38,701 bases of DNA from Acidobacteriota bacterium (GTDB lineage: Bacteria; Acidobacteriota; Terriglobia; Versatilivoradales; Versatilivoraceae): contig JAJECY010000034.1 of the NCBI GenBank assembly GCA_022821775.1, forward strand, positions 1 through 38,701. The letters run 5' to 3'. A program made the translations under genes and the position numbers. Numbering within the stretch: the first letter of the stretch is position 1; the number at the start of each line of letters is the position of its first letter. The notes beneath the pieces were generated by a model, which was not told the DNA's origin, ran no database searches, and saw nothing but the letters and a program-made list of their open reading frames with translations. This document shows positions 17,120-35,334 of this stretch, one piece after another.

Positions 17120-18139
17120 CTACGGCCAGGGGCGTCCGGCATCGGTGGCCTGGATCATCCGCTGCAGCCGGTCCACGATGTAGTTGGTACCCATGGCGAT
17201 CAGCCTCTCCCCCTTTTCCGGGGTCGCCAGCAGCGCCTGCTCCTGGCGGGCGCGGTCTCTGGGGTTTTCCGGGTTGGTGGTCCGCTGGGCATCGAAGGGC
17301 TCCATGTACTCCCACACCTTGGGCGGCATGTCCGATTCGTAGTTCAGGCCGGCCCGGTCGTACTCCTCCAGGGTGACGAAACGCACCCGGTCCGGATAGG
17401 CGGCCATGAGGATCGAGGTCTCGTTTTCGGAGGCGTGGCTGTGGGCCGTCCGGCGGGCCAGCGTGTCCAGCTTTCCCTCCAGCTTCTGCCGGTAGGAGGT
17501 CAGGAAGGTGGCCAGTTCCTCCTCCTTGTATCCCTCCCCGTAGGAGACGGCGTCCAGGCTGATGCCCAGTTTTCGTCGCCACTCTGGGAGCGCCCCTTTC
17601 AGCAGGCCATGGTTTCCCCCATGGCCGTTGACCACCAGGACGGTGCCGAACCCGTGAGCGGTGAGGCTTTCAATCACGTCGAAGACGTAAGCCAGAAAGG
17701 TTTCCTTGCGCAAGGTGAGGGTTCCCTTGCGGGCCATGTGATAAGGGGCGTAACCCACCGGGCAGGGCGTAGAGACCGTCACCCGAGGGTAGAGCCGGAG
17801 GGCGGCCTGTTGAGCGAACAAGGTGGCGGTGGCGGCGTCTGTGATCAGCGCCAGGTGCTCGTTGTGTTGCTCGGTGGACCCGGTGGGCACGATGGCCGCC
17901 TTGAGGTCTCCGCTCTGGAGGGCTTCCCGGACTTCCTTGCGGGTTCGCTCCCACAGCAGGACCTTCTGAGGATGGACGAAGCCCGAGGACGAGCCGGCCA
18001 TGGAGGAGGTGATCAGGGGGGCGGAGCGGGAATCGTAGGCCGCGGCCGGCGATGAGGCGGCGGTCCCCGGCATGGATCCGACAGCCCCGGCAGCGCCCAG
18101 GGATTTCAGGAAGCGTCGGCGAGAAAACCCGGCTTGCAT
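17120..18139 (-). CDS. Tat-exported creatininase-family amidohydrolase
   Basis: ATG at 18137-18139 preceded by AAAGGAGA gives 339 residues; a longer in-frame start would run into the repeat at 18184 and is rejected. The leader GFSRRRFLKSLGAAGAVG is a Tat signal. Creatininase metal ligands are visible: Glu90 and His92 (TGSTEQHNEH), Asp101 (ITDA), His173 (NGHGGN), and Glu240 in ASENETS. Family members hydrolyse cyclic or linear amides such as creatinine or formamido compounds; here the substrate is unknown. The family is normally cytoplasmic, so export is notable. It lies downstream of the amidohydrolase and DapA-like genes on the same strand, separated from them by 430 bp of repeats. Confidence 0.9.
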   Translation of the reverse strand: MQAGFSRRRFLKSLGAAGAVGSMPGTAASSPAAAYDSRSAPLITSSMAGSSSGFVHPQKVLLWERTRKEVREALQSGDLKAAIVPTGSTEQHNEHLALITDAATATLFAQQAALRLYPRVTVSTPCPVGYAPYHMARKGTLTLRKETFLAYVFDVIESLTAHGFGTVLVVNGHGGNHGLLKGALPEWRRKLGISLDAVSYGEGYKEEELATFLTSYRQKLEGKLDTLARRTAHSHASENETSILMAAYPDRVRFVTLEEYDRAGLNYESDMPPKVWEYMEPFDAQRTTNPENPRDRARQEQALLATPEKGERLIAMGTNYIVDRLQRMIQATDAGRPWP

Positions 18140-18183
18140 CGACAATCTCCTTTCGCTTTTCAATCCTTCAGGCAAGTCCCGCA

Positions 18184-18545
18184 CCCGCCCCCACGACGGG
18201 CGAATCATTCGTGGGTGAAACAACAAATCTTCATGGCCTGTCGGGAACAAGGACTCTGTTCCGTTAGCACGGTTGTCTGCCTAATGAACATCGATGCACA
18301 GGATGCACAGGATTAACAGGACGAGAGCTTCCTGCACGAGAAGCCGGCTCAGGCGATGATACGGTGCGGTTTTGCGGATTCCCGGCATTGGAAGCTAGTG
18401 TCCTGTCCCGTTAATTCGGCGCATTATTCAAGACGTTAACTCATTGAATTCATTTAAACTTCTGGCCGAAATACTGTAAATGCACTTCTGGGACAGGCCA
18501 CTAGCCGTTTGCTGAAAAAATCCTGTGCATCCTGTGCATCGATGT
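18184..18545 (+). repeat. Composite palindromic intergenic repeat (copy I, interrupted by a MITE-like insertion)
   Basis: Blocks in order: GC hairpin (18184-18202), ATCATTC, GTGAAACAAC, GGGAACAAGGA..CTGTTCCGTTA, the GAACATCGATGCACAGGATG arm (about 18287-18318), a variable middle, the 102-bp insertion (18399-18500), then the inverted arm TCCTGTGCATCCTGTGCATC (18521-18545). The two ATCGATG arms are inverted copies, so the unit could fold into a long stem. It separates the amidohydrolase stop from the creatininase start. Confidence 0.8.
18399..18500. mobile_element. 102-bp MITE-like insertion with CTAG target duplication
   Basis: The ends TGTCCTGTCCC (18399-18409) and its inverse GGGACAGGCCA (18490-18500) match at 10 of 11 positions. 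CTAG flanks both sides (18395-18398 and 18501-18504). The interior is AT-rich compared with the window and too short to code for a transposase. The related repeat at 29383-29538 lacks the insert and reads CCAG at the join, giving an empty-site comparison. CTAG duplications are known for IS5-type elements, so a non-autonomous IS5-like element is an inference. Confidence 0.7.
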
Positions 18546-18568
18546 TTTTTCTGTGGTTTCAGACACGC

Positions 18569-19552
18569 CTACCGCTTGAAAAAGAAGTCCTCGGCGGTCT
18601 TGATCAGGATCTGCTCCTTGTCCGCCGGGCTGAGAAAGTCGGCATGGTCCCGGATGAGGGCCACGGCCGGCTCGATCCCGTGCGGCGGGTCGGGCAAGGG
18701 ATGCCTGGAGGGGCGGTCGGGTGGGAAGGGCGCATCGCTCTCCCACATGCATCGTTCCGGACCGAAGGCCGCCACCACTCGCTTGATCAAGGGCAGCAGG
18801 CTGGTGTAGGGAGGGGTTCTTCCTCTGCTGTAGAAGGCCCCCACTTTCAGCATGACCCGCTTGTGTTCGGACATGCGCAACAGGGCGGTGATTTCGTCCT
18901 CGGAGGAGCCCTCGTAAACCCCGGCGAAGTGGTCCAGGATGACGGGAGTTTCCGGGTAGCGGCCGCACATGCGGTCGACTTCGGGTAAATCCCGGGGGCC
19001 CATCAGGAAGCTCAGCGCCAGGTTGTGGTCGGCTCCCGCCTTGAACATCTTGTCGAATCCGGGGTGGTCCATCCACTGCGGGCCCCCGCCCAGTGGAGGA
19101 CGGGTGCTGCCGCCACGAACACGAAAGGCATGGACTCCCTGCCTGGAAAGGGCCACCATGGTCCGGTCGGGACTGGCCAGGGAGACGTCGGTGACGGCCG
19201 GAATGATGCCGGTGCCCACGAAGTGCTCGGGGTCGTTGGCAATGACGTCCAGGATGTAGGAGTGGTCGAGGCCGTACCAGGTCATCTGGATCAGGTTGAT
19301 TTTGCCAACCCCCGACCGATGAGCCTCCTCAAGGAGCCTTTCCGCCGAAAAGCTCGGCACCCAGAGGTCTTCCGGCGTGAAACCGTCGGCCAGCGGAAAG
19401 CGCCTGGTGTCGGAAGTCCAGATGTGAACGTGGGCGTCCACGATGCGGTGCTCGGCAGCCTTGGGCTTGTCGGGGCTCTTGCTGCTGCAGGCCGTCGCCA
19501 GCCCGGCCGCCCCGGCGGCAAGCAGCCACTCACGTCGACTCATGTTGTCCAT
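18569..19552 (-). CDS. Exported amidohydrolase_2-family metal-dependent hydrolase
   Basis: 327 residues; ATG 19550-19552 sits six bases after AGGAGG. The leader MDNMSRREWLLAAGAAG has a twin-arginine motif and ends in ATACSS, a plausible lipobox (Cys22). DAHVHIW (39-45) carries the HxH metal motif, ILDHFAG the downstream His, and MWESDAPF the late metal Asp, matching the TIM-barrel amidohydrolase_2 group (lactonases, decarboxylases). It begins 13 bp after the DapA-like stop, so the two share a transcript. A lactone or amide step before or after the DapA-like aldolase is possible; substrate unknown. Confidence 0.88.
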   Translation of the reverse strand: MDNMSRREWLLAAGAAGLATACSSKSPDKPKAAEHRIVDAHVHIWTSDTRRFPLADGFTPEDLWVPSFSAERLLEEAHRSGVGKINLIQMTWYGLDHSYILDVIANDPEHFVGTGIIPAVTDVSLASPDRTMVALSRQGVHAFRVRGGSTRPPLGGGPQWMDHPGFDKMFKAGADHNLALSFLMGPRDLPEVDRMCGRYPETPVILDHFAGVYEGSSEDEITALLRMSEHKRVMLKVGAFYSRGRTPPYTSLLPLIKRVVAAFGPERCMWESDAPFPPDRPSRHPLPDPPHGIEPAVALIRDHADFLSPADKEQILIKTAEDFFFKR

Positions 19553-19565
19553 GACTGACCTCCTG

Positions 19566-20588
19566 CTAGCTCTCCCGCCTCACCTCTGAAAGGGAACGGG
19601 CAATTTCAGCGATGACCGCCTTGTCCTTCTCGGCCACCTGGGTCCCGGGAGGCCTGACCGGCCCGCCGGCCCGACCCAGCGATTCCAGGGCCACCTTAAT
19701 GGCGCTGATGCCATACCCGGGCTGGACCCCGCGCAGCTTGACCACCGGTTCGATCTTTTCCTTGAGAACCCGGTTCATTTGTTCCTTCTCTCCCGCCACG
19801 CCGTGCTTCCAGAAAGCGTGGCTGGCCCGGGGAACGAAGGTGGCCACCGCGGTGGTGTAGGCGCGGCCGCCCACCGGCAGGGCCTTGGCTGCGTGGCCCT
19901 CGCCTTCAGCCACCCAGAGGAAGTCGTCCGGAACCAGGTTGCCCAGGGCCAGACCCACCTCGGTGCCCCCGCTGGGGTCCTTGAATCCGACGATGTTCTC
20001 GATCCCGGACAGTCTTTTCAACAGGCGGGGCCAGTACTCCTCGGACCGGGGATAGATCAACACTCCGATGTCGACCGACTTGGCCACGTCCAGGCAGCAA
20101 CGATAGGTGCCTTCCTCCTGTCCCCAGCGGGAGCCCGGCGGAAAGATCAGCACGGCATCGGCCCCCGACTTTTCCGCGTTGCGGGCCATGGTCATTGCGT
20201 TCCGGTAGCCACCGCCTACCCCGGCCACCACGGGCATCTTGCCGTCGGCGCCCGCCACCGCCGCCGTCACCAGAGCGCGGTGCTCTTCGATGTCCAGGCT
20301 GTAGAGCTCGCCCAGGCCCCCGGCAACAACGATGGTCATGTTCTGGTGGAAACCGCGGGCGTGATCGGCCACGTTGCGGCGGAGGCCCTCCGAATCCAGC
20401 TCGAAGTCGGAGTGAAAGGTGGTGACCATGAAGTTGTGCACGCCCTGCAATGCCTGAATCAGGTCCCTGCGATTTCGAGCCGTTCCCGGCCTTGGGGAGG
20501 CCTGGCAGGCGGCCATGGGAGCCACCGCCAGGGTTCCGGCGGCCAGCGCCAGGTCCTGTACGAATCCTCTTCTGCTGCGTTTTCTCAT
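19566..20588 (-). CDS. Tat-exported dihydrodipicolinate synthase superfamily protein (II)
   Basis: 340 residues; ATG 20588 with GGAGA upstream. The leader KRSRRGFVQDLALAAGTLAVAP is Tat-like and a possible lipobox (MAAC, Cys28) follows. Schiff-base Lys203 (IVGFKDPSGG) and Tyr179 (GVLIYPRSE) are present. The usual GTTGE loop reads GGLGE (90-94), so the two hydroxyl side chains are absent, which suggests a substrate other than that of lysine biosynthesis. It is a paralogue of the gene at 8739, which keeps Ser residues in that loop. First gene of a leftward pair with the amidohydrolase, and divergent from the amidohydrolase gene at 20798 across 209 bp. Confidence 0.88.
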   Translation of the reverse strand: MRKRSRRGFVQDLALAAGTLAVAPMAACQASPRPGTARNRRDLIQALQGVHNFMVTTFHSDFELDSEGLRRNVADHARGFHQNMTIVVAGGLGELYSLDIEEHRALVTAAVAGADGKMPVVAGVGGGYRNAMTMARNAEKSGADAVLIFPPGSRWGQEEGTYRCCLDVAKSVDIGVLIYPRSEEYWPRLLKRLSGIENIVGFKDPSGGTEVGLALGNLVPDDFLWVAEGEGHAAKALPVGGRAYTTAVATFVPRASHAFWKHGVAGEKEQMNRVLKEKIEPVVKLRGVQPGYGISAIKVALESLGRAGGPVRPPGTQVAEKDKAVIAEIARSLSEVRRES

Positions 20589-20734
20589 GGGGCGTCTCCG
20601 GTCTCTTGCGACTCCAGCTTCCGGTCAGGCCTGGCCGACTCCGATTCAACCCCCAGCCTGGGCGCCATCATACTTGGTTGGCCGACGGCCAGCAACCCCG
20701 ATCTGGTCGCCCGATCCGGCCGCCCTCGACCCCA

Positions 20735-20762
20735 TTGACAAGGCGCTTCGGGTCTGGATAGT
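20735..20762 (+). promoter_or_regulatory. Candidate sigma70 promoter for the amidohydrolase-Rieske-symporter run
   Basis: TTGACA at 20735-20740, a 16-bp spacer, then GATAGT at 20757-20762. Transcription would begin about 30 bases before the GTG at 20798. The leader contains CTCTCTCG (20763-20770) and CGAGAG (20786-20791), which could pair and partly cover the GAGAGG ribosome binding site. Confidence 0.45.
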
Positions 20763-20797
20763 CTCTCTCGGACGCGAGACAGTTTCGAGAGGGCAGA

Positions 20798-21883
20798 GTG
20801 GTTCGGGAATCCGGAAATGAGGCGCAACGACCCTTCTGGTCGGGGCGCCCGGTCATTGACTGCGACCTGCACAACGAAGTTCCCTCGCTGGAGGTGCTGA
20901 GGCCCTACCTGGCCGACCACTGGTGCGACTATATCGAGGAGTCGGCCTTTAGGGGGCCGGATGCGGACGACTATCCCAAGGGAGCGCCGACCACCATTCG
21001 GCCGGGACTGGAATGGGAGGGAGAGGTGGAGGGGCAGCTTGCGCTCATGCGGCGGCAGGTGCTCGACCCTCTGCAGGTCGAATTTGGCGTTCTGGACTGC
21101 GCCTACCGGGTTCAGGGCGTGCACGATCCGGAGCTGGCCGGGGCCCTGGCCTCGGCCATCAACCGCTGGCAAGCCGAGCACTGGTTGGACCGCGACCCCA
21201 GGCTGCGAGCCTCCATTGTGGCTCCCACCCAGAGCCCGGTGCTCGCCGCAAGGGAAATCGACCGCTGGGGCGCCGACGCCCGTTTCGTCCAGGCGGTCAT
21301 GCCGGTCCGGTCGCTGATCCCCTACGGAAACCGGATTTACGACCCCATCTATGAAGCGGCCGCCCGCCACGACCTGGTGGTGGGGATTCAGTTCGGGGGA
21401 TCTCCCGGCCATCCCCCGACTCCCAGCGGCTGGCTCTCCACCTACCTGGAGGAGTACGCCGCCATGGCCCAGGTCTTTCAGTCCCAGGTGACCAGCTTGA
21501 TCGTGGAAGGCGTGTTCGACCGCTTTCCCGACCTGCGAGTGTCCCTGATCGAGGCGGGCTGCACCTGGATGCCTTCGCTGATGTGGCGGCTCGACAAGGA
21601 GTGGCGGGGCCTGCGGCGAGACATCCCCTGGGTCAAGCGTCCCCCTTCCGACTACATTCGACGGCATATCCGGCTCACGCTGCAGCCGGTGGATGCTCCT
21701 CCCTCCGGCAAGCAGCTCCTGGAGGTCATCGGCCAACTGGATTCCGACGAGATGCTGATGTTCGCCACCGACCATCCCCACTGGCATTTCGATCGGCTGG
21801 AAGAGGCCTTTCCCGCGGGCTTGTCCGACTCCCTGGCCCGCCGGGTGCTGGCCGACAACGCCCGCTCCTTTTATCGGCTCTAG
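20798..21883 (+). CDS. Amidohydrolase_2-family protein (paralogue 1)
   Basis: 361 residues from GTG 20798, preceded by GAGAGGG. There is no signal peptide, unlike the leftward amidohydrolase, so it should be cytoplasmic. VIDCDLHNEVP (19-29) carries the metal DxH, and MFATDHPHWHFD is the late metal-Asp region typical of TIM-barrel amidohydrolase_2 enzymes such as ACMSD-like decarboxylases and related hydrolases. The following gene is a clear paralogue with the same layout (ALARATNDW versus ASAINRW, RLRASI in both). With the Rieske gene and symporter downstream it suggests uptake and ring opening or decarboxylation of an aromatic or cyclic compound. Exact reaction unknown. Confidence 0.87.
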   Translation: MVRESGNEAQRPFWSGRPVIDCDLHNEVPSLEVLRPYLADHWCDYIEESAFRGPDADDYPKGAPTTIRPGLEWEGEVEGQLALMRRQVLDPLQVEFGVLDCAYRVQGVHDPELAGALASAINRWQAEHWLDRDPRLRASIVAPTQSPVLAAREIDRWGADARFVQAVMPVRSLIPYGNRIYDPIYEAAARHDLVVGIQFGGSPGHPPTPSGWLSTYLEEYAAMAQVFQSQVTSLIVEGVFDRFPDLRVSLIEAGCTWMPSLMWRLDKEWRGLRRDIPWVKRPPSDYIRRHIRLTLQPVDAPPSGKQLLEVIGQLDSDEMLMFATDHPHWHFDRLEEAFPAGLSDSLARRVLADNARSFYRL

Positions 21884-23584: not shown

Positions 23585-23677
23585 GCGGGAGGCATCGCGG
23601 CGAGTGCGAAATCGCCCTTGCGGCTCTCATTCGCGCGACCGGAGTCATCGGCCAAAACCGACTGGAGGTGGATCTTT

Positions 23678-25216
23678 ATGTGGCGAGGACCGGACCTGGC
23701 GGTGATCGGGCTGAATCTGGCGGTGATGGTCTGGATCGGCGTCTATTGCGCTCGCAAGAGCAAGTCCTCGGACGCCTATTTCCTGGCCGGGCGCAACATG
23801 GCCGGATGGGTGGTGGGGATGTCGATGATGGCCACCATCGTCAGCTCCATGACCTTCCTGGCCACGCCGGGGTTTACCTATTCCGAGAACTGGCGCTACA
23901 TGCCGGCCAACTTCACCTACCTGCTGGCCGCCATCCCCGGGCTCCTGCTGTTCATGCCGCTCTTCAGGCGGGGTGGGTTCCGGTCCGCCTACGAATACCT
24001 GGAAAGGCGTTTCGGCACCTGGGCGCGGCTCTATGCCGGAGGGGCCTTCATCCTGTTCCAGATGTTTCGGCTGGGGGTGATTCTCTACGCGGTCTGTCTG
24101 CCCATCAAGGCCATGACGGGGTTTTCGCTGCCCTGGGTGATCGTGATCTTCGGGGTCCTGGTGGCTGCCTACACCATTGCCGGTGGCCTGGAGGCGGTCA
24201 TCTGGACCGACTTGATCCAGGGGTTTGCCTTGATCCTGGGCGGACTCATCTGCCTGCCCATCATCTTCGGGATGGTGCCGGGCGGCTTCGGCCAGGTGAT
24301 GGGAGTGGCGCTGGCCGACGGCAAGCTCTCGGTGGGCAGCACCGCCTTGAACTTTTCCGAAAAGACCGTTTGGGTGACGGCGCTCATGCACCTGTTCCAC
24401 TTTACCCAGTACATGTGCGTCAACCAGATGACCATTCAGCGCTACCAGGCCATGAAGAGCACCGGCGAGGCTCGCAAGGGAATCGTTCTGAGCGCGGTCG
24501 CCACCGTGGCCGTCTGGGTGTTCTTCAGCTTTATCGGGACGGCGCTCTACGTCCTCTACAAGTACAATCCGGCTCCGGAAGTGGGGACGCTGCTGCCGGA
24601 GGAGGTCTATCCCTTCTTCATTCTCAGCCACGTTCCGGCCGGCGTGGCCGGTTTCGTGATCTCGGGACTGCTGGCGGCGGCCATGTCCACCCTCGATTCC
24701 AGCATCAATGCCTCGGCGGCCACGGTCACCACCGACTTCTATCGACGGTTGCTGGCCCCCGACCGGCTGGAGCGCCATTACGTCACCTTCGGAAGATGGA
24801 TCTCGGGTTTTTTCGGAGTGGTCATGATCGCCATCGCCCTGATCATCCACTTCACCCGCACCGAGACTCTGCAGGACCTTCAAGCCACCCTGATCTCCAT
24901 CATGAGCGGGGGGCTGTTGGGGCTGTTCCTGCTGGGCCAGTTGACTCGACGGGTGGATGGCCGCTCCGCCTTCCAGGCCACCATGGTCACCCTGGCCGGG
25001 GTCAGCCTGTGGCTGTTCATCGACAGCCGCTTGGGTTCCGAGCTGTTTCCGACTCTTGCCGCCCTGCTTCCCGACAAGTTCTGGATCATCGTGCTGGGCA
25101 ACACCTTCCTGTTTGTTCTGGGAGTCCTGCTGAGCCGCGGATCCCGGCGCAAGCCGGACCGGGACCTGACCGATCTGACCGTCTGGACCGGAAAAACCGG
25201 CGAGGCGCAGGCTTGA
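23678..25216 (+). CDS. Sodium:solute symporter (SSS/SLC5 family)
   Basis: I choose ATG 23678 (GGAGGTG eight bases upstream) for 512 residues; a longer start would add a charged segment before the first helix. About thirteen hydrophobic segments fit the SSS family. Characteristic pieces are KSKSSDAYFLAGRNMAGW after helix 1, GGLEAVIWTDLIQGFALI, and QMTIQRYQAMKSTGEARKG. It should import an organic solute with Na+ across the inner membrane. The position at the end of the amidohydrolase/Rieske run suggests that solute feeds those enzymes. It converges with the M81 gene across 7 bp. Confidence 0.92.
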   Translation: MWRGPDLAVIGLNLAVMVWIGVYCARKSKSSDAYFLAGRNMAGWVVGMSMMATIVSSMTFLATPGFTYSENWRYMPANFTYLLAAIPGLLLFMPLFRRGGFRSAYEYLERRFGTWARLYAGGAFILFQMFRLGVILYAVCLPIKAMTGFSLPWVIVIFGVLVAAYTIAGGLEAVIWTDLIQGFALILGGLICLPIIFGMVPGGFGQVMGVALADGKLSVGSTALNFSEKTVWVTALMHLFHFTQYMCVNQMTIQRYQAMKSTGEARKGIVLSAVATVAVWVFFSFIGTALYVLYKYNPAPEVGTLLPEEVYPFFILSHVPAGVAGFVISGLLAAAMSTLDSSINASAATVTTDFYRRLLAPDRLERHYVTFGRWISGFFGVVMIAIALIIHFTRTETLQDLQATLISIMSGGLLGLFLLGQLTRRVDGRSAFQATMVTLAGVSLWLFIDSRLGSELFPTLAALLPDKFWIIVLGNTFLFVLGVLLSRGSRRKPDRDLTDLTVWTGKTGEAQA

Positions 25217-25223
25217 CTGGATC

Positions 25224-26711
25224 CTACCCCGGATAGGCCAGGTTCTCCTGCAGGGGGTACAGGGAACGCCGCACGTTTCGGTAGGTGAAGTGGGCGGGGT
25301 TGGCGCTGGTGGACCCGGGCGTGTCCACCAGGATGGTGTGGTGGGCGATGGGTTCGTAGGCTGCCCGGGGGGCAACCACGCCCTTGACCACCAGGATCTT
25401 CTTCTTTTCGGGTCTGAGCCCCAGGGACCAGAGCTGTTCCAGGCTTCGGGGGGCCATGCGTATGCTGGTCAGCACCAAGGTGTTTTGGCGCGGCGTTTCC
25501 AGCACCGCCGTCACTCCCTGATCGAAAACCCCCTGGCCGCCGTGGCGCGGGCGGCTTTCGGTGGAACGCCCGTCGGCGATGGAGCGGATGCAGCCTTCGA
25601 CCCGCAGGGGACGGCCGTGGAGGGCGTCGCTCCTGGCGCCCACCGTCAACTCGATCGACTGCCGAACCCCTCTTCGCACGCAGGCGGACACGGCCTCGGG
25701 ATCGTAAAGGGTAACCAGGGCCTCCGAGGCCTGCTGGCGCAGGATTTCCTCCAGCAGGATGGTGGAGTCGCCCGGGCTGCCTCCTCCCACGTTGTCCCCC
25801 ACATCCAGAAGCACAACCGGTCGGCCGGTTTCCCGGGCGGCACGGCGCACGGCTTCGGCCGGACCGGGAAGGTCGCTGAGAAATTCCCTCCGCCGCCGCC
25901 AGGCCCTTGTCGCCAGCCAGCGGGCCGCCTTGCGAGCCAGTTCTTCGTCTCCATCGGCGATAGCCAGAAAGGAAGCTCCCATCTCTTCCACGTCGGAATA
26001 GTAGAAGCCCATGGCCGTGCTGGCCGAGAGAATTCCCGGCCACTCCAGCACCGACTCGACGTCCCGGTAGAGGTCCCTGGCCGGGGCCTCCTCCGTGTAC
26101 TGCCGGGTGATATTGAGCAGCAGGGGAGGGCGCTCCAGGGCCTGGACCGGGTTGATGTCACCCCGCAGGGTCTGCGCCATCAAGCCGGCCGCCTCCAGTC
26201 CGCGCTCCCTCTGGTCCAGGTGGGGGTTGGACCGGTAGACCACGATGCCGCTGGTGTTGCGGGCCATCTTGTCGGAGACGTTGGCATGGAGGTCGATCAC
26301 GGCCAGGATGGGAATGCGGGGCCCCAGGACCTGGCGGAAGCGTGCGGCAAGCTCTCCATCGGCGTCGGGGTAGCTCTCGGCCACGGCCGCCCCGTGCAGG
26401 GCCACCAGCAGCCCGTCCAGGGGCAGGGCCGCGCGCAGGGCCCCGGTCAGATCGGCAGCCAGCTCTTCGAAGGAGTCGCCGGGAATGGGAGCCGAAGGGA
26501 CGCCGTAGGTGGCCAGCAGCGGCACCGGCTCGAACCGGTATTCCCGGGCTCCTTCGAGGAACCCGCCGAGCTGGTGGTGGGTGCCCTCCCAGCGTTCCAG
26601 TAACGCATCCGCTCGAGTAAAGTTGGTGTCCTTGAAGTGCTGGTAGGGCGTGGGGATCGGAGAGAAGCTGTTGGATTCGTGCAGGAATCCGGCGATGCCG
26701 ACGCGTTTCAT
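25224..26711 (-). CDS. M81 family (MlrC-like) metallohydrolase
   Basis: 495 residues from ATG 26711, the usual length for the family. Markers: LHESNSFSP (10-18), AVIDLHANVSDKM (137-149) with zinc-site His142, RSNPHLDQRERG, and the domain-2 glycine motif DNVGGGSPGDST. MlrC-like proteins are cytoplasmic zinc hydrolases acting on small peptides or modified amino acids; the name comes from microcystin breakdown, but most family members act on other compounds. It starts 35 bp downstream of the amidohydrolase-aminotransferase fusion, so the two probably form one operon for an amino- or peptide-like compound. Confidence 0.92.
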   Translation of the reverse strand: MKRVGIAGFLHESNSFSPIPTPYQHFKDTNFTRADALLERWEGTHHQLGGFLEGAREYRFEPVPLLATYGVPSAPIPGDSFEELAADLTGALRAALPLDGLLVALHGAAVAESYPDADGELAARFRQVLGPRIPILAVIDLHANVSDKMARNTSGIVVYRSNPHLDQRERGLEAAGLMAQTLRGDINPVQALERPPLLLNITRQYTEEAPARDLYRDVESVLEWPGILSASTAMGFYYSDVEEMGASFLAIADGDEELARKAARWLATRAWRRRREFLSDLPGPAEAVRRAARETGRPVVLLDVGDNVGGGSPGDSTILLEEILRQQASEALVTLYDPEAVSACVRRGVRQSIELTVGARSDALHGRPLRVEGCIRSIADGRSTESRPRHGGQGVFDQGVTAVLETPRQNTLVLTSIRMAPRSLEQLWSLGLRPEKKKILVVKGVVAPRAAYEPIAHHTILVDTPGSTSANPAHFTYRNVRRSLYPLQENLAYPG

Positions 26712-26746: not shown

Positions 26747-29104
26747 TCAGGTGAGGCGCTGAAATCCGGTCTGCTTGACGGGTCCTCCGATTCGCTGCTC
26801 GATGTCTCCTTTCTCAATGGCCTCGGCCAACTCCTCGAACACCGGCTCCACGGCGGCGGCGTAGGCCTCCACGTGGTGGGGCTGGTGGGCCAGGGTCAAC
26901 TGGACTCGCGGCGCCGCCATAAAGCCGGCCTTCAGCATGCGCACCGTGAACAGCGTCTCCAGGGCCAGCACCCGGGGATGGTCCAGGACGAATCCGGCGT
27001 TCACGTTGTGGCCGCTGACGGAAAGCGGCAAGGCATATTTTGCGCCCAGCGACAGCCAGACCTGCTTGATCTGCTCGCCGATTCGGTCCACGTGGCCGAC
27101 CACGTCAACGCGCATCATCTTGCGAATGGCCGCCAGCGCGGCCGCCGGCCCCACCCCCTCTGTCCAGAAGGAACTGGAGATGAAGGACCCCTGGGCCGCC
27201 TGCATGGTGGCCTCGGTGCCGATCACCGCTCCCATGGGGTGCCCGTTGGCCGTCGACTTGGCGAATACCGCCATGTCGGGATCGACGCCATACAAGAGGT
27301 GGGCTCCTCCCAGGGCGTGCTTCCATCCGCTGGAGACCTCGTCGAATATCAGCTTGGCGCCGTGTTGGCTGCAGAGATCCCTAACCCCCTGCAGGAAGCC
27401 GGGAGGAGGATGGTCGCCTCGGGTGGCTTCCATGACCACGGCCGCCAGGGGTTCGCCGGTGGTTTCGAAGATCCGCTCCAGTTGATCCAGCCGGCCGAAT
27501 TGGAAGGGAAGGGTGGTGCCGCCCAGATTGAAGGGGACGCCGGCCGCATCCAGGCCCTTGAGCAGGTGGTCTCCCAGCCGGTCCTGGTCGGTGCCCACGT
27601 TGGTGGCCATGTACCAGTCGTGCCAGCCATGGTAGCCGCAAATGGCAACCCTCTGGCGCTGGGTAGCCGCTCGGGCGATGCGCACGGCCACTGTCAGGGA
27701 CTCTCCTCCGGCCCGAGTGAAGCGGGCGTTTTGGGCCCAGGGGTGCAGTTGCAGCATCAGGCGGGCCACCTCCACCTCCTCGGGAACGTTCAGGGTGCAC
27801 ATGGACCCGAGCTGGACCCTGCGCAGCACGGCCTCGGTGACGTCGGGGTCGGCGTAGCCCAGCAGGCAGGAGCCGATGCCGTTGAAGCTCATGTCGGTGA
27901 GGTGGCGTCCATCCATGTCGACGATGGTGCAGCCGCGGGCTTCCTTGTAGTAGGCCGGCCACTGTTCGGGCGCGAACAATTCCGGGCGCTTGCTCAGAAG
28001 GTTGGTTCCTCCGGGAATCAGCTTCTTGGCCACCTGGTAGAGCTCCTGGCCGCGGCCGACCTTCTGCTCTCCGATTCCGAAGAGCTGGTGGGCGTTGCGG
28101 TAGAAGATCCGCTCGATGTCGGCGTCGGTCATGTGCCTGTTGCGGCAACCCTGCTTGAGGGCCAGCAGGCTCTCCAGCCCCAGCACCGTGTGGGACCCGA
28201 AGGCGGTCGTCGACCAGTCCAGGTTGGCCGTGCCCATCCAGACAAAGCCGTCGCCGATGCTCACCGCCCGACCCCTCAGCTCGGAGACGGGGAAGTCGGT
28301 TCCGAAAAGGAGGCGGCCGGGTCCGAAGAGCCTCAGGATCTCTTCCACCGGCTGCGGCTCGCAGATGGCCGAGTTGTCGAAGTAGACGTTGTCGAGTCCG
28401 TGCAGCGATTCCAGGCCTTCCAGTCCATGCCCGGCGTTGAAGCTGCGGGCGCAGTGGGCCAGGATGAGATTGGCGCCCGGATAGCGCCGGCAGTGGCGTC
28501 GAATGTAGTTCTGATTGGCGGGATCGGCCATGGCCCGCGGTTTGACCAGGTGCAGCATGATGGCCATGCCCCGCCTGTGGGCGATTTCCCAGGCCCACTC
28601 CGGCAGGAACTCCTCGATCTCGGCGTTGTAGGGATCCTCCCTGTCGGCATAGACCAGGTAGACCTTCATGCCCACGAACCCCTCCGAGGCGATCTGTTCC
28701 TCCACCCGGTCCGGGTCGTCCTGGGGATGGACGAGCATCAGGGCCTTCAGCCGCTCCTCGCGGCTGGTCTCCGCCGCCAGGAATCGGTTGGCGCCGGCCA
28801 TGTCCACGTCCCGGCGGGGCATGCCGAAAAACAGGCCGCCCTTGGCCGTCCGATCCCCCATCCATTTCGAGATCTGGCTCCGGTAGGCGGCCCAGCCGCC
28901 GGGGTCGGGGGCATCCTTGAGATAGCTGGCGGCATAGGTCGGCCCGATGTGGGATCGCTCGTAGAAGTGGGCATGAGCGTCAAAGGCCTCCGGCGGAACG
29001 AAGCTCCTGAGGTGCCTTTGGAACAACTCGGTGTCTTCCGGGAGAACCTCGAAGTCGCTCGCGGAGAAGATGGTGACGGCAGCGGAAGATGAATCCTTTC
29101 CCAT
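26747..29104 (-). CDS. Fusion of amidohydrolase_2 domain and class III (glutamate-1-semialdehyde-aminomutase-like) aminotransferase
   Basis: ATG at 29102-29104 with AGGAG eight bases upstream gives 785 residues; the open frame further upstream enters repeat DNA and is rejected. Residues about 38-345 form a metal-dependent TIM barrel: FDAHAHF (His44, His46), IMLHLV (His185), LILAHC (His217), FGTDFP (Asp270). Residues about 347-785 form a PLP fold-type I domain: CGYHGWHDWYM (489-499), IFDEVSSG (Asp588), VFAKSTANG (Lys616). Both active sites look intact, with RAGGES (464-469) where SGTEA is common. No leader, so cytoplasmic. It may release and then transaminate or rearrange an amino-aldehyde or keto compound, passing the intermediate between domains. 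First gene of an operon with the M81 gene. Confidence 0.9.
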   Translation of the reverse strand: MGKDSSSAAVTIFSASDFEVLPEDTELFQRHLRSFVPPEAFDAHAHFYERSHIGPTYAASYLKDAPDPGGWAAYRSQISKWMGDRTAKGGLFFGMPRRDVDMAGANRFLAAETSREERLKALMLVHPQDDPDRVEEQIASEGFVGMKVYLVYADREDPYNAEIEEFLPEWAWEIAHRRGMAIMLHLVKPRAMADPANQNYIRRHCRRYPGANLILAHCARSFNAGHGLEGLESLHGLDNVYFDNSAICEPQPVEEILRLFGPGRLLFGTDFPVSELRGRAVSIGDGFVWMGTANLDWSTTAFGSHTVLGLESLLALKQGCRNRHMTDADIERIFYRNAHQLFGIGEQKVGRGQELYQVAKKLIPGGTNLLSKRPELFAPEQWPAYYKEARGCTIVDMDGRHLTDMSFNGIGSCLLGYADPDVTEAVLRRVQLGSMCTLNVPEEVEVARLMLQLHPWAQNARFTRAGGESLTVAVRIARAATQRQRVAICGYHGWHDWYMATNVGTDQDRLGDHLLKGLDAAGVPFNLGGTTLPFQFGRLDQLERIFETTGEPLAAVVMEATRGDHPPPGFLQGVRDLCSQHGAKLIFDEVSSGWKHALGGAHLLYGVDPDMAVFAKSTANGHPMGAVIGTEATMQAAQGSFISSSFWTEGVGPAAALAAIRKMMRVDVVGHVDRIGEQIKQVWLSLGAKYALPLSVSGHNVNAGFVLDHPRVLALETLFTVRMLKAGFMAAPRVQLTLAHQPHHVEAYAAAVEPVFEELAEAIEKGDIEQRIGGPVKQTGFQRLT

Positions 29105-29945
29105 GTCGATTACTCCTGGAGAAATGGCAACGATACCCTGGACTTCAGACCCGTGGATTCCGCCTCGGTTCGAATACGAGGGCCATGGAGGTGGGTTCAG
29201 CCGAACCAGGGGACTCCATACTACTGGATTGCGCAGCCGACGCCAACCGGGATGGGCCCGGGGCCATTTTTTGTTCATGTCCATCGACTGCCCTCTCACA
29301 CTCCCTCTCCCGATCCCTAAAACCCTTGCCGGCGGTATCTTGCAAAAGGCTCCATGTTTATTGACTCTCACCCTTGATTCACATCGATGCACAGGATGCA
29401 CAGGATTTTTTCAGGAAACGACTGGCCTCTATTCCTGGGCATCCGCCATCCCGAACCGGATTATCGCTGGAGTCAGCTCCCCGAGCAGAAGCGTCCCGTC
29501 CCGGTTATCCTGTGCATCCTGTGCATCGATGTTCAATGGTTGGTTCTTCTCGATTGATCTGCCCCATCTCGTAGGCCCACTATGGCCAACACTCCGTTTC
29601 GTGTCCTTCGTTACCCAATCCTCGATTTCGGTTGTCACACCCCCAAATCAACATTTCATCCATCCGCTCATTGGTGTTCATTTGTGGTTCGTCGTTTTCC
29701 TTTGCAGTTTCCTCCTGTCGGTCCTTCAACCCATGCCTGAGGGGCCTCGCCCCTTTCCTGGCCTTCCAGGCCCAAACTAGAGAATGGACCTGGGGATTGA
29801 CGGGTTTAGCCCCCCGGAGGGGGCCGGGCTGTGATAGATTCTGCACAGACTGCGGGAGGGGCGCTCGGCAGCATCCGGCTGGCGGTGGCGGCCCGGTTGT
29901 GGTCACTGGAATCAGCGAGGAAGCGATCATGGAGGAGCGTTGCAG
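29105..29945. other. 841-bp divergent intergenic region rich in repeat fragments
   Basis: Separates the leftward fusion gene from the rightward RidA-type gene. It holds repeat copy II (29383-29538) and, on the minus strand, fragments of other dispersed repeats (TTCGTGTCCTTCGT near 29594; GTGTTCATTTGTGGTTC near 29671). A perfect hairpin GCCCCC-CGGA-GGGGGC lies at about 29808-29823. No reading frame here has a recognisable product. Promoters for both flanking genes must be here but none is clear. Confidence 0.6.
29383..29538 (-). repeat. Composite palindromic intergenic repeat (copy II, without MITE)
   Basis: Inverted arms ACATCGATGCACAGGATGCA (from 29381) and its reverse complement (about 29508-29533) enclose a middle that, read on the minus strand, aligns block by block with copy I (CAGGATAACCGGGACGGGAC, GCGGATGCCC, then TCGTTTCCTGAAAAAA). 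Where copy I has CTAG, the 102-bp insert and CTAG, this copy has only CCAG. Confidence 0.78.
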
Positions 29946-31133
29946 ATGACCAAGAGAGATTTGCTCGGGCTGACGGTTTTGTGTGCTTTCGGCGTCCTGT
30001 GCCTGGCCGCCTGTCGACAGGCGCCGGTGGAAGAGCCGGCCCCGGCGGGGCCGCCCTTCAGCTCCGCCATCGAAGTGGATGACACTCTCTATCTGTCCGG
30101 GCAGGTGGGACTGGACCCGGAGACCCGGGAGATGGCCTCGGGAATCGAGGCCGAGACCAAGGTGACCATGGAGAACCTGAAGCGGGAGCTGGAGGCCAAG
30201 GGATACGGCTTCTCCGACGTGGTCGCCACCCACGTCTGGCTGACCGATATGAAGGAGATCGGTCCGATGAGCGGGGTCTATCGCGCCTTCTTCGAGCAGG
30301 ACAAGCTGCCCAGCCGCACCACCGTCGCCGTCTCGGAACTGGCGCTGGGAGCCAGAGTGGAAATCGCCATGGTCGCCGTGCGGGGAGAGAAGACCTACGT
30401 TTTTCCTGAAGGAACCGAGCCCGGCAAGGCTCCTTACAGTCCCGGCGTGCTGGCGGGAGATCGCCTCTTCGTGTCGGGCCAGGCCGGGGTCATTCCGGGT
30501 TCGGCGCCACCCAAGCTGGTCGAGGGCGAAATCAAGGCGCATGTCACCCAGACCCTCAAGAACATCGAGACCGTGCTGAAGGCTGCCGACATGGATTTCT
30601 CCAACGTGGTCTCGACCGAGGTCTTCATGACCAGCGGCGAGTATTTCGGACCCATGAGCGAGGTCTACGTTTCCATGGTCCCCGATCCCAAGCCGGCCCG
30701 GGTGCCCATTCTGGTCTCGGCCATTCCCCTCGGTTCTCCGGTCGAAATCACCATGATCGCCAGCCGGGAGGAAAAGACGCCGGTGCTGCCGGAAGGCATG
30801 GGGGCCAGCGGCGCTTACAGCCGCGGCCTCAAGGTGGGCAACACCATGTACATCGCCGGCGTATTCAGCGCCAAGGAGACGGTGGAAGAGCGGGTGAAGG
30901 ATTGCCTGGATCGGGTGAAGCAGATCTACGAGGCCGGCGGATTCAGCATGAGCGACGTGGTCGAGGCCCGGGTCTATCTCAAGGATTGGGAGGACTATGG
31001 CGGAATGAACGCCGCCTATCGGAAGTATTTCCCTGAAAATCCGCCCACCCGCGCCACCATGGAGGTTCCCGATTCACCCGGGACCACCAAGATCGGGATG
31101 GCCTTCGTGGCCGCCCGGTCCGCGGCTGAATAG
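29946..31133 (+). CDS. Lipoprotein with three RidA (YjgF/UK114) domains
   Basis: 395 residues; ATG 29946 with GGAGGAG eight bases upstream. Residues 1-23 are a lipoprotein signal (VLCLAAC, Cys23), so the protein should be anchored outside the cytoplasm. Three RidA domains follow: about 38-147, 162-275 and 285-392. RidA enzymes hydrolyse reactive enamine/imine intermediates released by PLP enzymes, using an Arg paired with a Glu fifteen residues later. Domains 1 and 2 keep the pair (Arg124/Glu139, Arg252/Glu267). Domain 3 keeps Arg369, but position 384 is Gly. RidA normally is a trimer of single domains; here one chain could form a pseudo-trimer. Divergent from the PLP-domain fusion gene, although predicted compartments differ. 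Confidence 0.9.
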   Translation: MTKRDLLGLTVLCAFGVLCLAACRQAPVEEPAPAGPPFSSAIEVDDTLYLSGQVGLDPETREMASGIEAETKVTMENLKRELEAKGYGFSDVVATHVWLTDMKEIGPMSGVYRAFFEQDKLPSRTTVAVSELALGARVEIAMVAVRGEKTYVFPEGTEPGKAPYSPGVLAGDRLFVSGQAGVIPGSAPPKLVEGEIKAHVTQTLKNIETVLKAADMDFSNVVSTEVFMTSGEYFGPMSEVYVSMVPDPKPARVPILVSAIPLGSPVEITMIASREEKTPVLPEGMGASGAYSRGLKVGNTMYIAGVFSAKETVEERVKDCLDRVKQIYEAGGFSMSDVVEARVYLKDWEDYGGMNAAYRKYFPENPPTRATMEVPDSPGTTKIGMAFVAARSAAE

Positions 31134-32300: not shown

Positions 32301-32395
32301 CGTGGAATTCAAGTATGGAGCGCGCGACCCCGGGGCAATTCGAAAAAATTCACAATGATGCATAAATACCGACGAAATTCGGGAACAAAGTTTGA

Positions 32396-32420
32396 TTGTT
32401 GACGCCAACAAGTATAAAAT
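32396..32420 (+). promoter_or_regulatory. Candidate regulatory palindrome and -10 box before the cytochrome-type gene
   Basis: TTGTTG-ACGC-CAACAA (32396-32411) is a perfect 6-bp inverted repeat immediately before TATAAAAT (32413-32420), in the AT-rich 226-bp gap between the toxin-antitoxin operon and the gene at 32491. The palindrome would cover the -35/spacer zone, as an operator would. No matching regulator is identified. Confidence 0.35.
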
Positions 32421-32490
32421 TCAAAAGCGTTTAAGAGCAAATTCAGAAGGGTTGCCGAACACTTGCCGCGGCAAGCGGTTTGGGGGTCGC

Positions 32491-35334
32491 ATGAGCTATC
32501 TGGTGTTTCTTGTTGCTATTGCCGCTCACCTGTTGGCTGTCTCGCTCCATGGGGAGGAACAGCGGCCCAGCTTCGAAGCGGACATTCAGCCAATTATCGA
32601 GGCCCACTGCATCGCCTGCCACCAGGGCGCATCCGCCCAGAGCGGGCTGGTCATGGAGACGGTGGAGGCGCTTCTCGAGGGCGGCGAAAAGGACGGTCCG
32701 TCGATCATTCCGGGCAAGAGCGCCGAGAGTTCTCTTCTCCTCTATTTGAGGGGCGAGCGCCAGCCCCAGATGCCCATCGGCGGCGATCCGCTGCCGGCGG
32801 AGCAGATCGACCTGATCGCCCGTTGGGTCGACCAGCTTTCTGCCGGGTCCGATCATTCGAGCCAGGCGGCGACTGACACGGCCGCCGCCGACGCCTCCGC
32901 TCATCAGTTCGAAACAGCCGTCAAGCCGCTCCTGGAGCAGCACTGCTTTACCTGCCATTCCATCCAGAACCACCAGAGCGGACTGGTGCTGGAAACCATG
33001 GCCTCCCTGCTGAAGGGAGGATCCCTGGGCGGTCCGGGAGTCATTCCGGGGAAGAGCGCTTCCAGCCCGCTCATCCAGCGGCTGCGCGGCGAGAAGGCGC
33101 CCCAGATGCCCCTGAACGGGGAGCCCCTGTCGGAAGAGCAGGTCGCGGTGATTGCCCGGTGGATCGACGAGTTGGAGGTGGCGCCCGTTCAGCAAACGGC
33201 AGAGGCTGAAAAGCCCGGCTGGCCCTGGGTCCCGTTGGAAAAGCCGGCCGTTCCGGAGGTCCGGCAAGAGAGTTGGGTCAAAAATCCCATCGATGCCTTT
33301 GTGTTGGCCAAGATGGAAGAGAAGGGCATGGAGCCGGCCCCTCCCATCGCCAGGCGCCAGTTGCTGCGAAGGCTCTATTTCGATCTGATCGGATTGCCTC
33401 CGAAACCGGAAGAGATGGAGGCCTTTCTCCAGGATGACTCGCCTGAAGCCTACGGGAATGCCGTGGAAAGACTGCTGGCCGACTCCCGCTACGGCGAGCG
33501 CTGGGCCCGGCACTGGATGGACGTGGTGCGCTACGGCGATTCGGTGGGAGGCGGGCTGGACTATCCCTTGCCTCACATGTGGCGCTACCGGGACTACATC
33601 ATCCGGGCCTTCAACCAGGACAAGCCTTACGACCGCTTCGTCAAGGAACAGATTGCAGGGGACGCCTTCAGGTTTTACGGGGAGGAGGGGAGGATCGCCA
33701 CCGCCTTCCTGAATCTGCAGGTGCAGGTGGAAGGCTCGGGCGATCAGCGCCGCGACTTCCTGACGGATGTGGTGAACACCACCGGGTCGGTGTTTCTGGG
33801 CGTTACCCTGGGATGCGCCCGCTGCCACGACCACAAGTACGACCCCATCACTCACCAGGACTACTACCGCATCGAGGCCTTTTACGCCCCCATGCCCAAG
33901 CCGCAGCCCCAGTCGGTGGCGTTCACCCAGTATGAACTCCCCAGGCAGAATCCCGAGATCTGGGAGCGCAAGGCCAAGGAATGGGAGGATCGGCTCAAGA
34001 AACGCAAGGAGTGGGCCGCCGGACTGCGCAAACAGGTCAAAGAAATTACCGATCCGCATCGGATTCTCATGTCGCCGCTGGACCTCAAGGACTGGGTGGT
34101 GGCCGATTTGAGGCGGGTGCCCTTTTCCACCAGCGAGCTGGTGCCCAAGGAGATCAGCAAGCAGTTCTCCCTGATCGGACGGCAGAACGCCCGCTTTGCC
34201 AACCCCAACGATCCCGACCGCTACAAGCCCATGGCCTATGTTCCCAGCGAGCCGTTGGGAAGCGTCGGGTATGCGCCAACCACCTTCCTGCTCAAGGGAG
34301 GCGACCCCGAGCTCAAGCAGGAAGTGGTGGAGCCCGGCTTTGTGGTGGCGGCCAGCGGGGATCCCGAGCCGGTGGATCTGAAGGGCTGGAGCGGCAGCCG
34401 GCGCAAGAAGCTGGCCACTTGGCTGGCCAGCCCGGAGAATCCTCTGACTCCTCGCGTCATGGTCAATCGGATCTGGCAACACCACTTTGGAAAAGGGTTG
34501 GTGAAGACTCCCAGCGACTTCGGCAAGAACGGCGCTGGGACGGTCCATCCGGAGCTGATCGACTGGCTGGCGGCCGAGTTCATCCAAAAGAGCTGGAGCA
34601 TCAAGGACATGCACCGCCTGATGGTGCATTCCAACCTCTACCGCCAATCCCTGAACAATCCTCGCGCCAAGGAGTACGAATCCATCGACAGCGCCAACCG
34701 CTATCTGTGGCGGATGCCGCCCCTCCGCCTGGAGGCAGAGGTCATTCGCGACAGCATCCTGGCGGTGAGTGGCGACCTGAACCTGCTGGCCGGCGGCCCC
34801 AGCTTCTTCCCCGATCTGGAAGACGACATGATGAAGCGCGCCCGGACCTGGTGGGAACCCGATTCCGAGGAGGAGCGCAACCGCAGAAGCGTCTACATGC
34901 TGCAACAGCGGGTACTGGTGTCTCCCTTGATCTCGGTTTTCGACGGGCCCAACATCAGCGAGAGCTGCGATGTCCGGGAGGTGACCACCGTAACGCCTCA
35001 GGTGTTTGCCCTGTTCAACAGCAAGTTTGCCCACGAGAAGAGCCACGCCATGGCGGAACGGATTCTGCAGGAAGTGGGAACGGACCCGGGCCGGCAGGTG
35101 GAGCGCGCCTTCCAGTTGGCCTTGCAGCGGCAGCCGACCGAAGAGGAAAAGATCCGGGGCCTGCAGTTCCTGGGAGTTCAAACGGATGTGCCGGGGACCG
35201 AACTGAGTCTCACGCAGGCGGCCTATTCCCCGGAGAGCGCCGAGATCTCGGCGTCCAAGGGCAAGACCGGCAGGTCTCTGTCCGACTTTTGCCTGGCCAT
35301 GTTTAATCTCAACGAGTTTATTTTCTTGCAGTAG
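32491..35334 (+). CDS. Secreted PSCyt1/DUF1549/DUF1553 protein with two tandem cytochrome-type domains
   Basis: 947 residues from ATG 32491; upstream in-frame starts lack a leader, while this one gives signal peptide MSYLVFLVAIAAHLLAVSLHG. Two PSCyt1 domains occur in tandem: heme motifs CIACH (40-44) and CFTCH (152-156), each followed by SGLV.ET, IPGKSA and PQMP. DUF1549 spans about 260-450 and ends in GCARCHDHKYDP. DUF1553 runs from about 636 (RKKLATWLASPENPLTPRVM) to 900. Such proteins, abundant in Planctomycetota, Verrucomicrobiota and Acidobacteriota, are thought to act in periplasmic redox-linked polymer or glycan metabolism, but the reaction is not established. A DUF1501 gene follows 42 bp downstream, the classic partner. 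Confidence 0.93.
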   Translation: MSYLVFLVAIAAHLLAVSLHGEEQRPSFEADIQPIIEAHCIACHQGASAQSGLVMETVEALLEGGEKDGPSIIPGKSAESSLLLYLRGERQPQMPIGGDPLPAEQIDLIARWVDQLSAGSDHSSQAATDTAAADASAHQFETAVKPLLEQHCFTCHSIQNHQSGLVLETMASLLKGGSLGGPGVIPGKSASSPLIQRLRGEKAPQMPLNGEPLSEEQVAVIARWIDELEVAPVQQTAEAEKPGWPWVPLEKPAVPEVRQESWVKNPIDAFVLAKMEEKGMEPAPPIARRQLLRRLYFDLIGLPPKPEEMEAFLQDDSPEAYGNAVERLLADSRYGERWARHWMDVVRYGDSVGGGLDYPLPHMWRYRDYIIRAFNQDKPYDRFVKEQIAGDAFRFYGEEGRIATAFLNLQVQVEGSGDQRRDFLTDVVNTTGSVFLGVTLGCARCHDHKYDPITHQDYYRIEAFYAPMPKPQPQSVAFTQYELPRQNPEIWERKAKEWEDRLKKRKEWAAGLRKQVKEITDPHRILMSPLDLKDWVVADLRRVPFSTSELVPKEISKQFSLIGRQNARFANPNDPDRYKPMAYVPSEPLGSVGYAPTTFLLKGGDPELKQEVVEPGFVVAASGDPEPVDLKGWSGSRRKKLATWLASPENPLTPRVMVNRIWQHHFGKGLVKTPSDFGKNGAGTVHPELIDWLAAEFIQKSWSIKDMHRLMVHSNLYRQSLNNPRAKEYESIDSANRYLWRMPPLRLEAEVIRDSILAVSGDLNLLAGGPSFFPDLEDDMMKRARTWWEPDSEEERNRRSVYMLQQRVLVSPLISVFDGPNISESCDVREVTTVTPQVFALFNSKFAHEKSHAMAERILQEVGTDPGRQVERAFQLALQRQPTEEEKIRGLQFLGVQTDVPGTELSLTQAAYSPESAEISASKGKTGRSLSDFCLAMFNLNEFIFLQ

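Follow-up and report, generated by a model that had tools for sequence, protein, structure and literature searches.

A conserved fusion of an amidohydrolase and a class III aminotransferase in Acidobacteriota and Planctomycetota

Results

The fusion gene and its surroundings

The window analysed here, a 38,701-nucleotide stretch of DNA from an Acidobacteriota bacterium (contig JAJECY010000034.1), carries on its minus strand a single gene in which two enzyme domains are joined. The open reading frame runs from an ATG at 29104 to a stop at 26749-26747 and has no internal stops. The gene, its parts and its relevant neighbours are as follows.

26747..29104, minus strand: fusion gene (785 aa) coding for an Amidohydro_2 domain and, after it, a class III PLP aminotransferase domain; stop codon included in the coordinates
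28073..28981, minus strand: Amidohydro_2 domain, residues 42-344 (Pfam, AF2 model, invariant residues)
28055..28072, minus strand: interdomain linker, residues about 345-350 (alignment and low pLDDT)
26750..28054, minus strand: class III aminotransferase domain, residues 351-785 (Pfam, PDB and fold matches, invariant residues)
29113..29117, minus strand: AGGAG ribosome-binding site, 8 nt 5' of the ATG, kept in congeners
25224..26711, minus strand: M81/MlrC-family metallopeptidase gene, 35 nt downstream of the fusion (Pfam, synteny)
23618..25216, plus strand: SSF-family sodium/solute symporter gene near the fusion (Pfam)
29940..31133, plus strand: gene encoding three RidA domains on a lipoprotein-like chain, divergent from the fusion, kept in the genus and in genome G008

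On the fusion chain Amidohydro_2 (PF04909) scores 72.5 bits against a Pfam gathering cut-off of 26.4, and Aminotran_3 (PF00202) scores 133 bits over residues 382-696 against a cut-off of 30.5. The AlphaFold model of the hydrolase domain alone is a TIM barrel (pLDDT 83, pTM 0.87), and that of the full-length chain (pLDDT 83, pTM 0.61) combines the TIM barrel with a class III aminotransferase fold; linker residues 346-349 fall below a pLDDT of 50 in this model and the placement of one domain relative to the other is unreliable. In the alignment the linker varies in sequence among fusions and is longer in a few of them.

The M81 gene is probably transcribed together with the fusion. The initial annotation had read this co-transcription as a pathway link; the two genes do adjoin in the window's genus and in G008, but an M81 gene does not accompany the fusion in G007 or at any Planctomycetota fusion locus, and we reject it as a conserved pathway partner. 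The SSF symporter gene is also found near the fusion in G008 and at locus L042 of a genome labelled Omnitrophota. In the product of the divergent gene (29940-31133, plus strand) a lipoprotein-like signal (LAACRQ) precedes three RidA (L-PSP) domains in tandem. Most RidA proteins have one domain and form trimers in the cytosol, and this protein may be a trimer made of one chain and exported. Elsewhere in the window, a 980-residue PSCyt1/PSCyt2/PSD1 protein (32392-35334, plus strand) is of a planctomycete cytochrome type, here in an Acidobacteriota genome, and creatininase-family, Amidohydro_2 and DHDPS-family genes form a run (17120-21787, minus strand) whose products have N-termini resembling Tat or lipoprotein export signals, which is unusual for such enzymes.

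Two predicted active sites in one chain

We find that H44, H46, H185, H217, D270, D588 and K616 are invariant in 23 of 23 non-redundant fused proteins. In the predicted barrel the HxH pair (H44, H46) lies at beta1, H185 at beta5, H217 at beta6 and D270 after beta8, and these five metal-site residues are kept in unfused amidohydrolase partners as well. The aminotransferase domain has a GGTNLLSKRPE motif, D588 and the PLP lysine K616. The initial annotation had named exactly these seven residues and all are present; its list of metal-site residues was correct as far as it went and left out K147, which is likewise invariant in the 23 proteins. K147 stands at the end of predicted strand beta4, at the position that we take to be occupied by the bridging lysine of binuclear (subtype I) hydrolytic amidohydrolases; given this position, a two-metal site is possible in the predicted hydrolase domain. 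Together, the alignments show one chain with two predicted active sites, both intact and both conserved.

Is the fusion authentic? The window's genome is a sponge-type 4.4-Mb Acidobacteriota draft in 312 contigs, and in a draft so divided an assembly or frameshift artefact might have joined two neighbouring genes. We regard this as excluded for practical purposes, because the same architecture is found in many independent assemblies, single-contig chromosomes among them, and because the in-frame junction is kept in other species. The relatives compared include 'Candidatus Versatilivorator' and further Acidobacteria MAGs. Five congeners besides the window's genome carry the fusion intact, one of them on a single-contig 5.1-Mb chromosome (OX638355.1); in a sixth (G002) contig ends interrupt the gene at residues 466/480, inside the aminotransferase part and not at the domain junction. 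Across residues 331-370 substitutions among congeners are few and mostly synonymous, and on both sides of the junction most substitutions fall on third codon positions, indicating purifying selection along the whole chain. A two-gene form with a stop near residue 346, which the annotation had offered as grounds for doubt, does not occur in close relatives: every genome of the genus and family that carries the gene has it fused. The reading of the gene as a true fusion with both sites intact is thereby borne out.

Distribution and history of the fusion

Within the family, two other members carry the intact fusion at 71-73% identity and three further genomes have no close match to it. Among 396 genomes sampled evenly across the phylum Acidobacteriota, our search yielded no additional fusion. 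The same domain order, for which the annotation had proposed a search in other genomes, recurs in 18 of 392 sampled Planctomycetota, a count that includes one genome reached first through a contig scan, and several of these fusions lie on single contigs of 6-9 Mb. It recurs as well in one genome labelled Omnitrophota, at 46% identity. Sequence comparison thus shows a fusion conserved across phyla, one that is authentic and of old origin.

The aminotransferase tree places the fused rows in one group (SH-aLRT 91), within which three unfused rows nest, and the AU test does not reject a single fused clade (p 0.34). Some aminotransferases nested in the fused clade (L152, L155 and L176) have no detectable amidohydrolase nearby; in one of them (G827/L155) a relic of the amidohydrolase was sought behind an in-frame stop and none was found. 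The Acidobacteriota fusions nest among those of Planctomycetota in this tree, which suggests that the fusion was passed between phyla. In the amidohydrolase tree the fused rows again group (SH-aLRT 95), with the exception of L156 (G757:C209, 8028-10469, minus strand), which combines an aminotransferase of the fused clade with an amidohydrolase domain from another clade; placing that domain with the other fused ones is rejected by the AU test (p 0.0009). L156 therefore looks like a swap of the hydrolase module in which the covalent linkage was retained. Even without L156 the remaining fused amidohydrolase rows are rejected as a strict clade (p 0.0003), as an unfused Hydrogenedentota amidohydrolase (L084) nests among them.

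Unfused partners occur as neighbouring genes

We labelled 70 non-redundant aminotransferase rows by gene context: 19 are fused, 15 lie within 6 kb of an amidohydrolase homologue, 18 adjoin NeuB and/or SpsF-type cytidylyltransferase genes and 18 show none of these. An amidohydrolase homologue thus lies within 6 kb at 15 of 51 non-redundant non-fused loci, whereas about 2% would be expected by our own estimate, which follows from there being only 4-9 Amidohydro_2 genes per genome of 5-7 Mb (six genomes counted). Related genomes do not count as independent cases, but the unfused pairs come from no fewer than three distinct regions of the aminotransferase tree. In Devosia and other Alphaproteobacteria the pair consists of neighbouring, often divergent genes; in Planctomycetota (L080, L153, L154, L169 and L171) the two are neighbours on the same strand. 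A class-level relative, G043/L017, has a separate aminotransferase gene with an amidohydrolase gene directly upstream and in frame. This gene encodes a different, lactonase-type amidohydrolase, L-fucono-1,5-lactonase-like (NCBIfam 241 bits, below the cut-off of 400; PDB 4dlf, E 3.7e-49). The adjacent separate genes in other lineages, together with the domain swap in the fused clade, agree with the functional link between the two activities that the annotation had proposed, and on comparative grounds this link is well supported.

Tandem amidohydrolase homologues, about 38% identical to the window's domain, lie beside a beta-propeller-like gene at locus L173 (G000:C30, 7787-10039, minus strand); both genes are retained across the genus and in G008.

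The aminotransferase is not HemL

Glutamate-1-semialdehyde 2,1-aminomutase (HemL) is the best sequence match to the PLP domain among solved structures (PDB 5i92, 2gsa), sharing its fold and PLP machinery at about 25% identity over the domain. The fusion departs from HemL in having GGTNLLSKR for NSPVR and an extra hydrolase domain, and it scores 163 bits against the TIGR00713 equivalog cut-off of 527.3. The NSPVR substrate motif of HemL after PGG is present in none of the 70 family rows, which have GGTxLLSKR instead, with SKR at the NSPVR place in 56 of 70. The true HemL of the window's genome is encoded elsewhere (contig C46, 599 bits), and a housekeeping heme enzyme is thus ruled out. The PRK06209 'GSA aminomutase' subfamily (NF004856) was likewise rejected, at 199.4 bits against an equivalog cut-off of 486. 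The AGGES loop had been taken as a sign of unusual chemistry; that argument falls away, since throughout this aminotransferase family fused and unfused members alike ordinarily have a GGEA or GGES loop.

Among the matches listed, the best target-normalised TM-score to the PLP domain (0.87-0.89) belongs to FumI (PDB 6hbs, 6hbv), which is 22% identical and has a different substrate. FumI is the aminopentol aminotransferase of fumonisin breakdown, its substrate is what the hydrolase FumD produces, and an engineered FumD-FumI fusion (FUMDI) acts consecutively (PMC9025740). The likeness lies in acting after a hydrolase; natural FumD is a carboxylesterase on a separate chain and not an amidohydrolase, and fumonisin breakdown is a direct parallel to the logic of the fusion, not to its family. 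PigE of prodigiosin biosynthesis (NF053554) is another class III aminotransferase joined to a further domain in one chain. The N-terminal part of PigE is not known to be an amidohydrolase, and the PigE model reaches 84 bits on the fusion chain against a cut-off of 850.

No characterised relative of the amidohydrolase domain in a PDB sequence search

A PDB sequence search with the amidohydrolase domain returned no characterised relative: its two matches are uncharacterised hydrolases from structural genomics. By sequence profile an uncharacterised metal-dependent hydrolase, 2f6k, ranks first. In fold searches decarboxylases, hydratases, lactonases and C-C hydrolases score alike (TM about 0.5-0.7), and lactonase-type COG3618 structures reach target TM-scores of 0.68 (4do7) and 0.70 (4i6k). 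Among the 25 NCBIfam matches listed for the window protein there is no L-fucono-1,5-lactonase. With the Amidohydro_2 lactonases (COG3618, 4dlf/4do7) and ACMSD-like COG2159 proteins the domain has in common a TIM barrel with HxH, His, His and Asp; it differs from both in its N-terminal extension, invariant K147 and fused PLP domain, and is less than 20% identical to them by structure alignment.

Recurrent neighbours of fused and paired forms

Around the window's fusion the neighbours (M81, RidA, Rieske, SSF) are not those of the Planctomycetota fusions. Recurrent beside fused or paired forms are HpaI/GarL-like HpcH aldolases, a NanA-like lyase of the DHDPS family (268 bits against a cut-off of 281), inositol-dehydrogenase-like Gfo/Idh and gluconate-5-dehydrogenase-like SDR proteins, PhyH-family oxygenases, a GntR-FCD regulator, a class IV aminotransferase, a ureidoglycolate-lyase-like protein, and SSF or oligopeptide-type ABC transporters. 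Each of five Planctomycetota genomes has 4-6 HpcH genes in all, and in every one of the five the fusion or pair has such a gene at a distance of about 5 kb or less; as these genomes were chosen for having such a neighbour, the count shows rarity and is not an unbiased rate. At fused loci L140, L149, L150 and L041 none of the listed sugar-acid genes lies within 6 kb. None of the loci examined had a gene context that names the substrate.

At locus L164 (G554:C130, 2954-5020, plus strand), which contains NeuB, an aminotransferase of the same family is fused behind an SpsF-type cytidylyltransferase domain. The NeuB/SpsF clusters in which the aminotransferase family occurs are consistent with a sugar-derived substrate.

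Discussion

The architecture described here is a genuine and conserved bifunctional one, built from two known families. What does it do? We propose that the protein is a bifunctional catabolic enzyme, in which hydrolysis is followed by amino transfer on an amino-sugar-derived compound, and we put the probability of this statement as a whole at about 0.4. A substrate imported by an SSF or ABC transporter would have its lactone or amide hydrolysed at the N-terminal metal site; the C-terminal PLP site would then remove the amino group by transfer or, running the other way, add one to a carbonyl. SDR or Gfo/Idh dehydrogenases would oxidise the product, and the oxidised product would pass to a separate aldolase of the 2-keto-3-deoxy-acid type (HpcH/HpaI or NanA-like). 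That the two domains perform two consecutive steps of one pathway is the part in which we have high confidence. That the pathway is catabolic and sugar-acid-like has about even odds: on the one hand, the recurrent neighbours and the lactonase-like gene of G043 together resemble an oxidative sugar-acid pathway (dehydrogenase, lactonase, aldolase) with an amino-group step added; on the other hand, with many aminotransferase homologues lying in NeuB/SpsF biosynthetic clusters, the chemistry need not be catabolic. Counting against the proposal as a whole are also the differing neighbours of the window's fusion, the fused loci without the listed sugar-acid genes, and the nested aminotransferases with no amidohydrolase nearby.

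Since the fold matches do not discriminate between decarboxylases, hydratases and lactonases, the N-terminal domain could instead be a decarboxylase of the ACMSD/dihydroxybenzoate type or a hydratase, whose amine or aldehyde product the PLP domain would then convert. The top fold matches do include 2,6- and 2,3-dihydroxybenzoate decarboxylases, isoorotate decarboxylase and the 4-oxalomesaconate hydratase LigJ, and the uncharacterised 2f6k leads the sequence profiles. Yet by target TM-score lactonase-type COG3618 structures match at least as well, G043 has a fuconolactonase-like unfused partner, and K147 sits at the presumed bridging-lysine place of hydrolytic subtype I enzymes. We therefore lean towards hydrolase chemistry at the predicted N-terminal site and consider decarboxylation or hydration unlikely. 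A biosynthetic enzyme, making or tailoring an amino-modified (nonulosonate-like) sugar for a surface glycan, would accord with the 18 of 70 aminotransferase homologues beside NeuB and/or SpsF-type genes and with the SpsF-type fusion of L164. However, the fused clade stands apart from the clades linked to NeuB/SpsF, neither NeuB nor SpsF occurs within 6 kb of any fused locus, and the window's genome has a single weak NeuB-family match on another contig (48.5 bits), while the transporters, aldolases and GntR-FCD regulator next to fused genes speak for uptake and breakdown; a biosynthetic role accordingly appears even less likely than decarboxylation.

Returning to the proposed catabolic enzyme, the covalent linkage most likely keeps two consecutive enzymes in stoichiometry and proximity. 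Channelling between the sites, as suggested in the annotation, is at most a possibility, given the unreliable placement of the domains in the full-length model. It is also conceivable, though improbable, that the fusion merely fixes the co-expression of two enzymes of one pathway, with sites that are not consecutive and no channelling between them. The short, variable and poorly predicted linker would fit such an arrangement, as would the fact that the pair also works as separate genes, sometimes divergently transcribed. Against it stand the domain swap in L156, in which the linkage was kept, and conservation of the fusion over wide divergence, which suggest that the linkage itself is under selection.

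A literature search for a described amidohydrolase-aminotransferase fusion found nothing relevant, within a coverage of the literature that is incomplete. It is tempting, if speculative, to go further and see here an undescribed bifunctional family serving an unrecognised catabolism of amino-modified (nonulosonate-like) sugar acids, a family that has spread between Planctomycetota and sponge-associated Acidobacteriota and whose linkage was selected despite exchange of the hydrolase; we think this full picture rather doubtful. Regardless, many genes annotated as 'aminotransferase class III', 'glutamate-1-semialdehyde aminomutase' or 'amidohydrolase 2' have no assigned substrate, and the pairing suggests which of them to study together. 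By marking two enzymes as partners the fusion offers a handle on a whole uncharacterised pathway, and given that complete planctomycete genomes carry it, its function is accessible to deletion and in vitro assay. If the sugar-acid reading is true, the fusion would be part of a route by which sponge symbionts and planctomycetes use amino-sugar derivatives of host or algal glycans.
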